Assembly: GCF_900100335.1 (NCBI RefSeq)
Contig: NZ_FNFE01000001.1
Location: 992,001-1,056,000, forward strand
Direction: 5' to 3'
DNA from: Natronorubrum texcoconense
Lineage (GTDB): Archaea > Halobacteriota > Halobacteria > Halobacteriales > Natrialbaceae
Length of the DNA: 64,000 nt
Shown here in pieces: positions 22,885 to 55,086 of the stretch (positions are counted from its first letter, which is position 1; each line of letters starts with the position of its first letter). The translations under genes and the position numbers were made by a program. Below the pieces are notes generated by a model. The model worked only from the letters and a program-made list of their open reading frames with translations, was not told the DNA's origin and ran no database searches.

Positions 22885-24216
<1,332 letters not shown>

Positions 24217-34120: not shown

Positions 34121-35296
34121 ATGGAGGAGCGAACGAGGGCCTATCTTCGCGGTCGATTTCGTGATCACTACCGGCGGACGGAGATCACGCCGCCGCCCGC
34201 GGCCAACGAACGCGAGTGGGGCTACATCCCCTGGACCGAGGGCCCGGATACGACGATGGTCCGCCACCGGTCGCTCCTCGAGCTAGGCGATCTTTCGGAG
34301 TTTCTCGTTCGAAAACGACCGCAGCACGTCTACTTCTCGGCGGGACGGTTTCGCGATCCCGGCGCCAGTTCGATGCACGCGAAAGATTGGCAGTCGGCAG
34401 ATCTCGTCTTCGACTTAGACGCGGACCACCTGCCGAGTGTGACCCTCGGCGAGGACTCCTACGCCGAGATGCTCGCGAAGTGTAAGGACGCACTGTTCCG
34501 GCTGATCGAGTTCCTGGAGGACGATTTCGGCTTCGAAGAACTCGAGTTCGTCTTCTCGGGCGGCCGCGGCTATCACGTCCACGTCCGCGACGAGAACGTC
34601 CTGCATCTGGATCGAGAACACCGCCGAGAGATCGTCGACTACGTTCGGGGAATCGGAATGGACTATGAGGAACTGATCGACACCGAGACCGTCGCAGGGC
34701 TCGGGCGAAAGACGCCGACGGAGCGACGAACGCTCGAGATCGACGGCGGCTGGGGCGCCCGAACCCACGACCACCTGATGGCGTTCGTCGAAGACCTGCT
34801 TGCGATGGACGACGAGGACGCCTTGGAGCGCCTCCAAGAGTTCGACGGCATCGGCGAGGGGAAGGCGACGGCGACGCTCAACGCGGCCCGGAACAACCGC
34901 GAACAGCTCGAGGCCGGTAACGTCACCGTCCACACCGCGGTCTCCCAACTGGCAGAGCGATTCGCCAGTCAGGCGGTCGAGCGCGACAACGCGCCGATCG
35001 ACGAGCCGGTGACGACCGACACGAACCGGCTCATCCGCTTGCCGGGGAGTCTCCACGGTGGCAGCGGACTGAAAACGGTGCGACTCGAGCGGGACGAGCT
35101 CGTGGAGTTCGACCCCTTAGACGACGCCGTCCCCGAGACGTTCCGGGGCCACGAGATCACCGTCGACGTCACCCGCGGCGGCGAGGTCGAACTCGGGGGG
35201 GATAGTTTTACGGTCACGGAGGGTGACCAGTCACTACCAGAGTACGTTGCCGTGTTCCTGATGGCACGCGGCCGCGCCGAGAAGGAGAAAGAATGA
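34121..35296 (+). CDS. priS: DNA primase small subunit PriS
   Basis: The 391-aa archaeo-eukaryotic primase catalytic subunit makes primers for replication. The metal acids are in LVFDLDADHLP and the phosphate-binding segment is VFSGGRGYHVHVRD. RLIRLPGSLHGGSGL is the conserved C-terminal His-containing motif. The ATG is at 34121. The stop overlaps the GINS start (ATGA), which links primer synthesis with the helicase accessory complex. Confidence 0.95.
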   Translation: MEERTRAYLRGRFRDHYRRTEITPPPAANEREWGYIPWTEGPDTTMVRHRSLLELGDLSEFLVRKRPQHVYFSAGRFRDPGASSMHAKDWQSADLVFDLDADHLPSVTLGEDSYAEMLAKCKDALFRLIEFLEDDFGFEELEFVFSGGRGYHVHVRDENVLHLDREHRREIVDYVRGIGMDYEELIDTETVAGLGRKTPTERRTLEIDGGWGARTHDHLMAFVEDLLAMDDEDALERLQEFDGIGEGKATATLNAARNNREQLEAGNVTVHTAVSQLAERFASQAVERDNAPIDEPVTTDTNRLIRLPGSLHGGSGLKTVRLERDELVEFDPLDDAVPETFRGHEITVDVTRGGEVELGGDSFTVTEGDQSLPEYVAVFLMARGRAEKEKE

Positions 35297-36234
35297 ATTT
35301 AGACGAGTTGCGTTCGGTCCAGAGCAAGGAGCGCCAGAAGGATAGCCTCCAGAATCTGCGCCCCTCGTTCTACCAGGAGGTCGGCGAGTATATCGCCGAT
35401 CTCGAGGACGAACGCGACCGCGTTGCAGAACAGGCCGACGACCCCTTTTCCTCGCCCGAAGTCGGCCGGCTCACCGACGAGATCGAGACTGCCAAGGACG
35501 TCGTCGAAGCCGTCTACGAGCGACGCATGGGCAAACTCGTCAAACAGGCCAGCCTCGCCGCGGCGGGGATGCCGGCCGACGACGACGGGCTGACCGCGGA
35601 GGAGGCCGACCTCTTCGACGACCTCGTCGATCGCATCTCGTCGAACAAGACTCGTGTGCTCGACGTTCTCGAGGGACTGGATACTGAGCCAGCGGCAGGT
35701 GCAACTGACGAAGCGGCTCCCGAAGCTGGAACGGACGCCAGTGTTGACCCCGATCCCACGACCGTCGAACGCGACCCCACGGCCGTCGATCCGATCGACG
35801 ATTCCGGCACGACGGAGCCAAAGGCCCCGCCCGAGGACGCGCCACCGGTGCCACCGCAGGATGCGCCGACCGACGTCGACTCGGGCCCCGAACCCGACGG
35901 AAGCGAGACGGCCGACGATGGGTCCGACGACTCGAGCGGCGTCACGCCCGCGGACGTCATGGGCGGCAGCGGACCGGAGATCGACGATTCAGCGTCGCCG
36001 TCGGAGGGGGCTCCGGCACCGCCGGAGGACGTCGGCGACGACGGGAATGCGGGTGCAAACGATGGCAGCGAAACCGACGTCGACCGCGTCACCGTCAAAA
36101 TCACCCGCGACATCGGTTCGATTCTCGGTGTCGACGACCGCGAATACTCGCTGTCGACGGACGACATCGTCACCCTTCCCGAACAGAACGCGACGCCGTT
36201 GCTCGAGCAGGAAGCGGCCGAACCGCTCGAGTAG
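35293..36234 (+). CDS. GINS complex subunit
   Basis: The 313-aa protein has a helical GINS A domain (MNLDELRSVQSKERQKDSL to ~120), a long Asp/Pro/Gly-rich linker (~130-255) and a small C-terminal B domain (VTVKITRDIGSILGVDDREY and LSTDDIVTLPEQNATPLLEQ). The A-then-B order with a long linker is the Gins51/15 arrangement. It associates with the MCM helicase in CMG-like complexes. It is translationally coupled to priS. Confidence 0.9.
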   Translation: MNLDELRSVQSKERQKDSLQNLRPSFYQEVGEYIADLEDERDRVAEQADDPFSSPEVGRLTDEIETAKDVVEAVYERRMGKLVKQASLAAAGMPADDDGLTAEEADLFDDLVDRISSNKTRVLDVLEGLDTEPAAGATDEAAPEAGTDASVDPDPTTVERDPTAVDPIDDSGTTEPKAPPEDAPPVPPQDAPTDVDSGPEPDGSETADDGSDDSSGVTPADVMGGSGPEIDDSASPSEGAPAPPEDVGDDGNAGANDGSETDVDRVTVKITRDIGSILGVDDREYSLSTDDIVTLPEQNATPLLEQEAAEPLE

Positions 36235-37126
36235 CATCTCTGAACCTGGTGTTGTTGTGAGTATCCGGTCCGCTCAAGCGGGCTGTAGACACTGCCAACG
36301 GTGATCTCTCCGACCTCTCCAACCGAGTTTCGCTCACGGATGCTCCGAGACGTCCAAGTTTGTGCTCACAGAGTTCGCGTATTATCGATCTAAAAGTAGT
36401 CTTATTTCCTCCGTATTCTACTTCCCATCGCTTCGATTATGGTTTCGAAAGCCCTCAGCGGCCTCGCGGTCGCTGCGGCGGATATCCTCCTTTCAGTCGG
36501 ATAGGGCCGCCGCAGCGACTCCACTGCGACGCGAGCCCACTTCGCCCTTTCAGTCCGCCAGGGTCGGCTGTATGCCTACCCTCCCCCGGTGAGGGGAAGC
36601 TTTGCTTTCGCGATGCTCGGAAGCGCACGCGCTTCCGTAGGATCGTGCGGCTCTCGCAGCGCTCGAGCCCCACTCTCGGCCATGGCGCGCGCTGACGGCG
36701 CGCCCGAGCACTACGAGGGTGCGCCGTCGACATTGTGCGAGGGGCGAGTGAGCGTAGCGAACGAGTCGGCTGGGGAGGATGGGGGCCTGTGGGTGGGACT
36801 GAAAGGGGCCGGCGCGTTGAGCGAACGCGAAGCGTTCGCGATGCTCGGGAGAGCTTGCTCTCCCGATGTTCGAGGAAGGCAGGCGACGCAAGGACCGCAA
36901 CCGACTGCAAGGAGGTGAGGCCCGCAGCGAGCCTCCCGACTCGAGCGCGCCGGGGGCTTTCGAGGTCGTTCCGTCTATTTTCCTCTTCTCTCCGTTACAT
37001 ACCGTGGACTGATGTTACTACAAACCAACCGATAACGCCTTCGTCGATACCGAATACGAGTATCGATCCGAAATCAAGCCGTCCCTAAACCACAACGCAT
37101 ACATCGACCCTCGCTAACAGACGGCC
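36235..37126. other. long gene-free stretch around a hairpin-rich element
   Basis: Open frames exist on both strands but overlap each other and consist of repeated Arg/Ser/Ala-rich runs without domain resemblance; they are taken as non-coding. Most of the stretch is the element at 36443-36965. The last ~110 nt up to the peroxiredoxin start are A/T-richer and probably hold its promoter. Confidence 0.6.
36443..36965. repeat. hairpin-rich palindromic element with inverted-repeat ends
   Basis: TCGAAAGCCC at 36445-36454 is the exact inverse of GGGCTTTCGA at 36954-36963. Beyond these, CGGTCGCTGCGGCGG on the left partly mirrors CCCGCAGCGAGCC on the right. Inside are several hairpins (GAAGCGCACGCGCTTCC; GAACGCGAAGCGTTC; GGGAGAGCTTGCTCTCCC; GTCGCTGCGGCGG/CCGCCGCAGCGAC). 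CTTTCAGTC occurs twice and its inverse GACTGAAAG once. Two copies of a unit with TTCGCGATGCTCGG between hairpins lie ~230 nt apart. No protein-coding evidence. Confidence 0.6.
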
Positions 37127-37606
37127 ATGCTCGACGTCGGCGACGAAGCACCCGAGTTCGAACTATCTAACCAGCACGGCGAGACCGTCCGCCGCTCAGA
37201 TTTCGACGGCGAGCGACTCGTCGTCTACTTCTACCCGCGCGCGAACACCGACGGCTGTACCACCGAAGCCTGCGGGTTCAACGACGCGCTCGCCGAGTTC
37301 GACGACCGCGACGTGAACGTCGTCGGCATCAGCGACGACCCGGTCGAGGACCTCGAGTCGTTCGCCGCAGAGTACGACCTCGAGTTCGATCTCCTCTCGG
37401 ACGAACTCGGCGAGGTCGCGACGCTGTACGACTCCTACGGCGAAAAGAAGATGTTCGGTAACACCTTCGACGGCGTCTTCCGCAACACGTACGTCGTCGG
37501 CCCGGACGGCTCCGTCGAGGCCGTCTACGAGGGTGTCACCCCCGAGGGACACGCCGAGGAGGTGCTCGACGATCTCGAGGACTCGTCGGCAGAACTCGCG
37601 CAGTAA
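37127..37606 (+). CDS. bcp: thioredoxin-dependent thiol peroxidase (BCP/PrxQ)
   Basis: The 159-aa peroxiredoxin reduces peroxides. YFYPRANTDGCTTEACGFND carries the peroxidatic Cys44 and a resolving Cys49 four residues later, the PrxQ (BCP) arrangement. The N terminus has DEAPEFELSNQHGETVRRSD and the end has TYVVGPDGSVEAVYEGV. It appears monocistronic. Confidence 0.95.
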   Translation: MLDVGDEAPEFELSNQHGETVRRSDFDGERLVVYFYPRANTDGCTTEACGFNDALAEFDDRDVNVVGISDDPVEDLESFAAEYDLEFDLLSDELGEVATLYDSYGEKKMFGNTFDGVFRNTYVVGPDGSVEAVYEGVTPEGHAEEVLDDLEDSSAELAQ

Positions 37607-53807: not shown

Positions 53808-55086
53808 TTCCTGATTCAACGACGCGCTTTGCAGACACGCGCTGAAAGTCAGCGGTGTCCGTAGGGAGCGCAGTCTCCACAGGCGTGTCTTCGGGCCATC
53901 CCAACCCTAATTTAGAAAATCCACGTTGTAGGACGTTCATCGCCGTCGCAAAATCGCACGCGATTTTGCTGCCCGTCAGACGTAGTCTGACGACCGCGTT
54001 CGCATCTCTATCCGTCTCAAACCCGCAAGACGGACACGAATGTTCACGTACCCAGATAGGCTTTGCCGTCTTCACGCCACACGATGCACACTCTTTCGTC
54101 GTTCCACGAGCAGGTACTTGCACAACGTGTGTACCGTACAAGTCGCCCTTATATTCGAGGAGTGTGATGAACTGTCGCCACGCTACATCCTGCTTATTCC
54201 GAGCGTTCCCATCGCTCTGGAGCATTCCAGCTACGTCGAGGTCTTCGACGAATACGGCGTCGTACTCTGTGACGAGCCACGTTGTGATTTTGTGCTGGTA
54301 GTCCAGCACTTTTCGCTGAATCTTCCGCTTGACCTTGGCGACTTCTTGGCGTTGTTTCTCCCAGTTGTTCGACCCTTGCTCCTTGCGCGAGAGTTTGCGC
54401 TGTTCTCGGCGCAAGCGTTCGTACTCATCTTCGAGGTCGATCCAATCCACGGTCTTACCGTCGCTGGTGTGGATGTAGTTCAAGATACCGAGGTCGATTC
54501 CGACGCTATTTCTCGCGTTAAGCGAGTCTACGTCGGGTTTCTCTGGAACGTGTTCGTCGTCCGTTTCGAGACTGAACGAGACGAACCACTCACCCGTTAC
54601 TTCCTTCTTCAGCGTGACTTCTTTGATAGTGGAGTGTTCGGTGAGTGGGCGGTGGTATCGGATTTTCACCCAGCCGATTTTACTGAAGCGGACGTACGCG
54701 AACCCGTTTCGGCCCCTCTTGTTATCAAGGTCGAAGCCTGACTGGTTGTACGTGACGCTTCGGTATTCGGCGGGTGATTGCCGTTTGAGCCATCCTACGT
54801 TGTATCCTTTCTCTTTCTTCTTGCGAAGGTTTGAGAGGTTGTCGTGGAAGCGTGCGACAGTGGCTTGGGCGGCTTTCGAGTGAAGTTCCGCGAATACGGG
54901 CCACCGCCGTTTCCACTCTGGGAGTTTGTTGTTCTGCTGGTATTCGCTTGGTTTGTCGTCGTCGGGACTGATAGTGTAGTCCCATCGGACGTGGTTGTAG
55001 AGTTGGCGATGAACATCCAGGTGATGTTCGGCAGCCGTCGCTACCTCGCCGCTTGGATAGGCGCGGTAACGGTGGCTGTATTCCAT
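53770..55086 (-). CDS. tnpB: TnpB with an in-frame palindromic insertion
   Basis: The 438-aa protein starts MEYSHRYRAYPSGEVATAAE. RuvC acids are in VGIDLGILNYIHTSDG (Asp) and AVFVEDLDVAGML (Glu). The zinc ribbon is KECASCGVKTAKP with SCPSCGFETDRDANA. The third RuvC motif normally reads DRDxNAA-xNxLxRG; here DRDANA is followed by 18 extra residues (VVRLRLTGSKIACDFATA) before MNVLQRG. The extra 54 nt are two perfect palindromes in frame, so the catalytic Asp is retained. Activity is uncertain. Confidence 0.9.
   Translation of the reverse strand: MEYSHRYRAYPSGEVATAAEHHLDVHRQLYNHVRWDYTISPDDDKPSEYQQNNKLPEWKRRWPVFAELHSKAAQATVARFHDNLSNLRKKKEKGYNVGWLKRQSPAEYRSVTYNQSGFDLDNKRGRNGFAYVRFSKIGWVKIRYHRPLTEHSTIKEVTLKKEVTGEWFVSFSLETDDEHVPEKPDVDSLNARNSVGIDLGILNYIHTSDGKTVDWIDLEDEYERLRREQRKLSRKEQGSNNWEKQRQEVAKVKRKIQRKVLDYQHKITTWLVTEYDAVFVEDLDVAGMLQSDGNARNKQDVAWRQFITLLEYKGDLYGTHVVQVPARGTTKECASCGVKTAKPIWVREHSCPSCGFETDRDANAVVRLRLTGSKIACDFATAMNVLQRGFSKLGLGWPEDTPVETALPTDTADFQRVSAKRVVESGSLGVDRESKGLS
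53942..53995. repeat. 54-nt double palindrome inside tnpB
   Basis: GCAAAATCG-CACG-CGATTTTGC (53948-53969) and CGTCAGAC-GTA-GTCTGACG (53974-53992) lie side by side and encode 18 residues absent from the normal TnpB motif. Length is a multiple of three, so the frame is kept. Confidence 0.75.

Follow-up and report, generated by a model that had tools for sequence, protein, structure and literature searches.

Intergenic mosaics of hairpin units of 20-40 nt, occurring both solo and as inverted pairs, are familiar from bacteria as REP, REPIN and BIME elements. For the archaeal order that includes Natronorubrum texcoconense, the nearest counterparts are the MITEs, PATEs and SMRs of Haloquadratum, as defined in the accessible text of a 2011 paper (PMC3119063). 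According to that text, the palindrome-associated transposable elements (PATEs) of Haloquadratum walsbyi lack terminal inverted repeats by definition, and the mobility of SMRs is enigmatic. A 489-bp PATE, strongly transcribed at one end, has been described in Halorubrum virus HRTV-DL1 and its host in the accessible portion of PMC10544981. The corresponding portion of PMC12558985, which deals with archaeal omega RNAs, yielded nothing on MITEs, PATEs or orphan copies, those of PMC7921747 and PMC2841640 yielded nothing relevant to the element treated here, and no description of the family with module order A-D-C-B' was found in open-access texts, supplementary files aside. The present analysis concerns a non-coding stretch of N. 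texcoconense, which is best explained (probability about 0.7) as a member of a family of haloarchaeal mobile elements, non-coding and non-autonomous, that extends across the order.

The window, i.e. the whole 64,000-nucleotide stretch of DNA that was analysed, belongs to a genome of 4.64 Mb. Within it, the 892-bp gap between a GINS gene and a peroxiredoxin gene (36235-37126) holds the core of the element, and a codon-score gene caller placed no gene inside 36234-37127. The features of the locus are as follows.

Upstream of the core, before the GINS gene: primase small subunit gene (PF01896)
35293-36234: GINS gene, downstream of the primase small subunit gene; Sld5 and Gins51_C matches, each just below cut-off
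36382-37035, + strand: proposed whole mobile element, with putative exact ends at the outer inverted repeats TTATCG (36382-36387) and CGATAA (37030-37035)
36443-36966, + strand: core A-D-C-B', a module order found again at other loci
36444-36562, + strand: module A, a long hairpin with an inner TATCC/GGATA helix and the foot GAAAGCCCTC..CTCGCCCTTTCAGTCCRCCAGG; aligned with 49 other A units
36445-36454, + strand: left inner inverted end TCGAAAGCCC (stem P1)
36545-36556, + strand: 5' strand of stem P3, CCCTTTCAGTCC, a 12-bp exact complement
36575-36682, + strand: module D, which begins with the stem P4 strand CCTACCCTCCCC and carries a double-hairpin insert
36587-36637, + strand: copy 1 of the double-hairpin insert with TTCGCGATGCTCGG, in module D; copy 2 is 36815-36865, in module B'
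36683-36785, + strand: module C, TGGCGCGCGCTG..GCGAGGGGCGAG..CGGCTGGGGAGGATG, which has further solo or paired copies in the genome
36772-36783, + strand: 3' strand of stem P4, GGGGAGGATGGG, 83% complementary to 36575-36586
36795-36966, - strand: module B as its reverse complement (B'), with solo copies at L002 and L003
36796-36807, + strand: 3' strand of stem P3, GGACTGAAAGGG, complement of 36545-36556
36954-36963, - strand: right inner inverted end GGGCTTTCGA (stem P1)
37127-37606: peroxiredoxin gene (AhpC/TSA), downstream of the core

All the features that a sequence-only reading had described at this place were borne out. The inverted ends are exact over 10 bp and extend imperfectly, at 82% over 22 bp; strong internal hairpins lie at 36469-36481/36507-36519 (13 bp), 36694-36705/36717-36728 and 36845-36854/36857-36866, with others in the predicted folds; and the location after primase and GINS genes was recovered by domain matches to both. 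The motif CTTTCAGTC, said to occur three times, does so within 36489-36498 (+), 36546-36555 (+) and 36797-36806 (-), the second and third copies pairing as a long-range stem and the first lying in a hairpin loop and not being kept in other copies of the element. The repeated unit around TTCGCGATGCTCGG proved to lie in a direct repeat of 51 bp whose two copies, 36587-36637 and 36815-36865, are 73% alike; the one in module D is not in the aligned copies of the element from genome G030. The boundaries first given, 36443-36965, match the core, but the mobile element is probably some 60-70 bp longer on each side.

The core is modular. Modules A and B, in units of approximately 110-125 nt, have the outer end GAAAGCCCTC and the inner end CTCGCCCTTTCAGTCCRCCAGG in common and differ in their middles, the inner end of the window's own module B being GGCCCCTTTCAGTCCCACCC; module C has ends of its own, module D joins A to C, and the long-range stems P1, P3 and P4 nest the modules within one another. 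Nine further loci, from three other genera, have the order A-D-C-B': L078, L079 and L080 (G025), L085, L087, L088 and L249 (G030) and, in another family of the order, L256 and L257. L248 (G030) has the same module order with a shortened B'. Elsewhere, modules stand singly or in inward-facing pairs. The 112 named loci contain 70 adjacent module pairs less than 1 kb apart, of which 49 are inward-facing (29 of them A with C), two face away, and 19 are in tandem, some of the latter being split matches of one module. Core-deleted remnants of 41-55 nt, with only both unit ends left, were seen at L118, L134, L140, L142 and L148; by eye, L134 looks like the orthologue of full-length L124 in another Halonotius species.

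The element is neither unique nor the sole bearer of its ends, for copies exist and the ends are shared elsewhere. A search of its own genome with a 601-bp query gives 21 places, the window among them, and the other 20 match only in part: L002 and L003 over the right 175 bp (solo B), L005-L021 over the middle 100 bp or pieces thereof, and L004 over the preceding piece. Matches to parts occur in 45 of 61 genomes, again counting the window's own. Among 145 genomes of the order, a covariance model of module A has matches in 101 at E≤1e-3, a level at which weak matches may be chance, and in 49 at a best E≤1e-10, often with at least 20 copies each, matches being counted up to 23 per genome; in the window's genome there is one A unit. 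The inner-end motif is present in at least 119 stretches in named genomes, and all 80 of those listed bear haloarchaeal names. In keeping with local amplification, resemblance among A units is greatest inside one genome (0.82, 61 pairs), lower within a genus (0.74, 66 pairs) and lowest between genera (0.66, 434 pairs), 34 of the 50 aligned rows being labelled for this comparison. The setting is overwhelmingly intergenic, in that 110 of 128 pattern units lie between called genes, 17 lie at locus edges and one overlaps a gene. No annotated feature underlies any of the 10 plasmid matches. Exact GGGACTGAAAGG matches at L041 and L044 (two of five in the genome) fall inside ORFs without a module and were taken as chance. 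Viral contigs gave no matches to the core motif, and phage records gave one 36-bp match and nothing more. That match, in haloarchaeal virus HJTV-4 (OP374082.1, 13600-13635), shares 89% identity with a piece of module A (E 0.004), falls under a gene whose annotation is hypothetical protein, and is possibly chance.

Two individual patterns of distribution can be described further. In the window's own genome, module C (L005-L021, e.g. L006 and L008) is a dispersed repeat, solo or in inward-facing pairs, whose copies have, by eye, common flanks beyond GGGGAGGAYGTGG (ATCATCGCCGCCAGCG..) and an outer end near ..GTGCGG. In genus g46, a single A unit occupies one orthologous place in all seven genomes searched, within a block that aligns over more than 1.6 kb at 11 loci (among L259-L267, L269 and L273) and that is present in two or three copies in some genomes. 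This A unit lies upstream of an ORF (L277:528-1679) whose RPA-type OB match is weak and below cut-off (PF16900, E 0.0037); its candidacy as an rRNA-operon neighbour was dropped, since no rRNA match was found and the neighbour is that ORF.

Comparison of orthologous sites reveals the element as an insertion. A peroxiredoxin orthologue is present at 27 loci, the window included, and the end of the GINS gene was located at 21 of them (at L233 by a weak match). Against 892 bp in the window, the GINS-peroxiredoxin gap spans 40-168 bp in 18 of the 20 relatives with both gene ends located. The two long gaps among relatives measure 723 bp (G003) and 624 bp (L237), and that of G003 holds an unrelated insert without any module, because of which this closest relative is not a clean empty site. 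For a second copy, L077 of G009, the orthologous sites are nearly empty in G006, G007 and G008 (about 13 bp) and in G001 and G004 (about 48 bp), and are occupied by other inserts in G003 and G005. The unrelated inserts at the window site (G003) and the L077 site (G003, G005), of roughly 0.4-0.8 kb, make these gaps look like insertion hot spots. The replication-linked site once suggested is not supported, since the same gap in relatives is without the element and the intergenic surroundings of the other copies are diverse.

Homology between the window and G003 is lost at 36384 and picked up again at 37048, and the flanks outside the core resemble those of non-orthologous copies: the left flank resembles that of L076 (score 57, shuffle maximum 33), and both resemble those of L077 (right, 48 against a shuffle maximum of 38; left, 36 against 32). 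The right flank has no similarity to L076 (19, shuffle maximum 33). From the homology break, together with the flank similarity to L076 on the left and to L077 on both sides, the whole insertion probably spans 36382-37035 and is thus larger than the core. The outer repeats of the window are short and imperfect, and are not the best inverted match found. In ten congeneric genomes, this outer repeat is present at the window only, save for one weak match each in G001 and G009, at loci without any module. The ends are far clearer in G030, in which homology extends 70-90 bp beyond the inner repeats and finishes in a 19-bp terminal inverted repeat. That repeat has nine matches in the genome (a reversed-pattern control gave none), and four facing pairs of it delimit gene-less elements of 560, 607, 625 and 677 bp, within which the core A-D-C-B' is enclosed. 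No target-site duplication was recognised at these four elements.

Of the identities proposed from sequence alone, those of a genome-wide dispersed repeat and a non-autonomous transposon are supported, by the numerous loci and species in which related copies occur, the absence from orthologous sites and the true terminal inverted repeats in G030. The preferred reading of a non-autonomous mobile family draws on these dispersed copies, the empty orthologous sites, the module order, co-varying stems, the G030 terminal repeats and the lack of an internal gene. Its architecture would be an inverted-repeat nest of outer terminal repeats, an inner 10-bp repeat, and modules A, D, C and inverted B, which stems P1, P3 and P4 would hold together, such that one core strand could fold on itself. 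A transposase or recombinase supplied in trans may recognise the ends or the hairpins and move the element between intergenic sites, and recombination between similar modules could generate the solo modules, inward-facing pairs and core-deleted remnants. Searches that distant partners may escape found no transposase-bearing element with the same terminal repeats in G030 and no transposase partner in ten congeneric genomes of the window. As candidates for an autonomous copy, three facing pairs with a spacing of 1.5-2 kb were rejected, for what they enclose is ordinary genes.

One alternative names the mobiliser. In it, the element is a PATE proper, i.e. a transposase-less derivative of the IS200/IS605 type moved as single-stranded DNA by a Y1 transposase (TnpA) that reads near-terminal hairpins. 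Hairpins near the termini, a non-coding nature, the lack of a visible target duplication and core-deleted forms of 41-55 nt all agree with PATEs as the accessible text of PMC3119063 describes them, and two paralogous tnpB elements of the same genome have a right end to which the 3' half of module C is similar (E 0.002, compared with 0.8 for the best control on the opposite strand), a lead suggesting that module C may descend from an IS605-type end. Nevertheless, the composite carries terminal inverted repeats, neither module A nor module B resembles the tnpB loci (best E 0.25 and 0.26), and Y1_Tnp (IS200/IS605) is absent from eight of 16 hand-picked copy-rich genomes, including G030, G060, G086 and G171, and is present in 14 of 16 hand-picked genomes without an A unit; such an origin is thus unlikely. 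The window's genome has only two Y1 matches, both at contig ends (G000:C2:3-326 and G000:C5:6-305), and 18 scattered matches above cut-off to the tnpB zinc ribbon; the window itself contains two of the latter (about 23061-23270 and 53989-54180).

Other alternatives put the fold itself first. As DNA, the core 36443-36966 folds better than every one of 100 dinucleotide shuffles (z -4.9), and the same is true of it as RNA, on either strand (z -6.0 and -6.3). From 143 extracted units (58 A, 56 B and 29 unclassified), an A alignment of 50 rows (49 units kept by type and by a length of 115-137, plus the window) and a B alignment of 31 of 33 kept units (L163 and L203 were omitted as A-like or odd) were built. 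Double compensatory changes appear at 20 of 32 predicted pairs in the A alignment. Stem P3 has two variable bases, and these agree across the stem in 20 of 22 facing pairs and disagree in the other two; among those that agree, orthologous L256 and L257 have GA/GA and one other has AA/AA. Between G030 copies, three pairwise comparisons gave 3-8 double changes alongside 3-8 broken pairs. Covariation and strong folding fit DNA and RNA alike, and the fold may act as DNA, in hairpin or cruciform, or as RNA. A bolder proposal, which is improbable as matters stand, is of an order-wide archaeal class in which the selected unit would be the four-module fold, with its covarying hairpins and nested stems, interchangeable hairpin ends A, B and C and lineage-specific outer repeats, and in which propagation would use neither Y1/HUH nor a recognised DDE enzyme but possibly a folded ssDNA or RNA intermediate.

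The structured RNA that was another early suggestion holds as far as the pairing, which does covary, but not as to a preferred strand or a known family. As a non-coding RNA family, its transcript would fold as A-D-C-B' and have a cellular or selfish function, with mobility secondary. Module A covariation, the co-changes in P3 and the strong fold speak for this, and the transcribed PATE of HRTV-DL1, as reported in the accessible text of PMC10544981, means that transcription of such elements is possible. However, GU:AC cells on the + strand number 13:39 for A and 40:32 for B, pointing to opposite strands as aligned and hence to no strand preference. Of 16 loci tried, all but L182 gave a full core, and 14 of these 15 copies fold better on the given strand, five of the 15 being B/B or A/B pairs with C unchecked and with an arbitrary or less certain orientation. 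In the window, this offset is mirrored by the shuffles (-254.9 versus -234.5) and so is owed to composition; better folding of one strand was therefore ruled out as evidence for RNA. Moreover, orthologous copies L256 and L257 have no double compensatory changes and 7-8 broken pairs, while change is rarer at their paired positions (13 of 299) than at their unpaired ones (13 of 110), and Rfam gave no match to the core at gathering score or E≤5 (best, 18.6 bits against a cut-off of 65.3). Such an RNA gene family, with mobility secondary, is quite unlikely.

A host-serving palindromic site akin to a BIME, acting as a transcription terminator or in nucleoid or gyrase binding, would fit an intergenic mosaic of palindromic units such as that of bacterial BIMEs, but is very doubtful given that the same site in relatives is without the element, that units have no clear gene-orientation preference (<< 36, <> 28, >< 23 and >> 23, with a background over all gaps of at least 60 bp of >> 154, <> 142, << 141 and >< 77), and that convergent gaps, the expected place of a terminator, are not clearly enriched (23 of 110 versus 77 of 514).

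A family that extends through much of the haloarchaeal order, with at least 20 copies in several genomes, goes unannotated. Its defined ends, modules and stems provide a testable element for how transposase-free haloarchaeal repeats move, and, should the fold matter, archaea would have in it a selfish element driven by structure.

Comparison with the described systems places the element among several of them. It has in common with REP, REPIN and BIME elements an intergenic mosaic of hairpin units, solo and in inverted pairs; unlike these, it is archaeal, its units are approximately 110-125 nt, and half of the copy-rich genomes tested have no Y1 of any kind. Common ground with PATEs, as the accessible text of PMC3119063 presents them, includes the lack of genes and of a transposase, heterogeneous copies, core-deleted short forms and no recognised target duplication. 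The palindromes near the termini also have their equivalent, in that modules A and B are long hairpins beside the inner ends, and so does a size too small for a transposase, the G030 elements being 560-677 bp and the window being without a called gene. Departures from PATEs are the terminal inverted repeats (10-bp inner repeats, and 19-bp repeats on the four G030 elements), the four ordered modules with long-range stems, and perhaps the A and B hairpins: palindromes of PATEs are related to the ends of IS605-type transposons, and those of A and B are unlike the tnpB loci compared, though the 3' half of C is similar to two tnpB right ends. From the same text, SMRs also have terminal inverted repeats and up to dozens of copies, and the lack of a known transposon partner and of a visible target duplication may be further common ground, but SMR-A is about 110 bp and HqIRS41 80 bp, whereas the G030 elements are 0.56-0.68 kb. 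The ISH2-type MITE HqIRS32 described there (about 520 bp) is comparable in size, terminal inverted repeats, lack of a gene and presumed movement in trans; the present element differs from it in that no transposon with matching ends was found and the internal structure is far richer, and perhaps in the target duplication that MITEs often have, none being recognised at the four G030 elements. Thus, the element shares traits with PATEs, SMRs and MITEs, while departing from PATEs in a defining trait, the lack of terminal repeats, and from SMRs in size.
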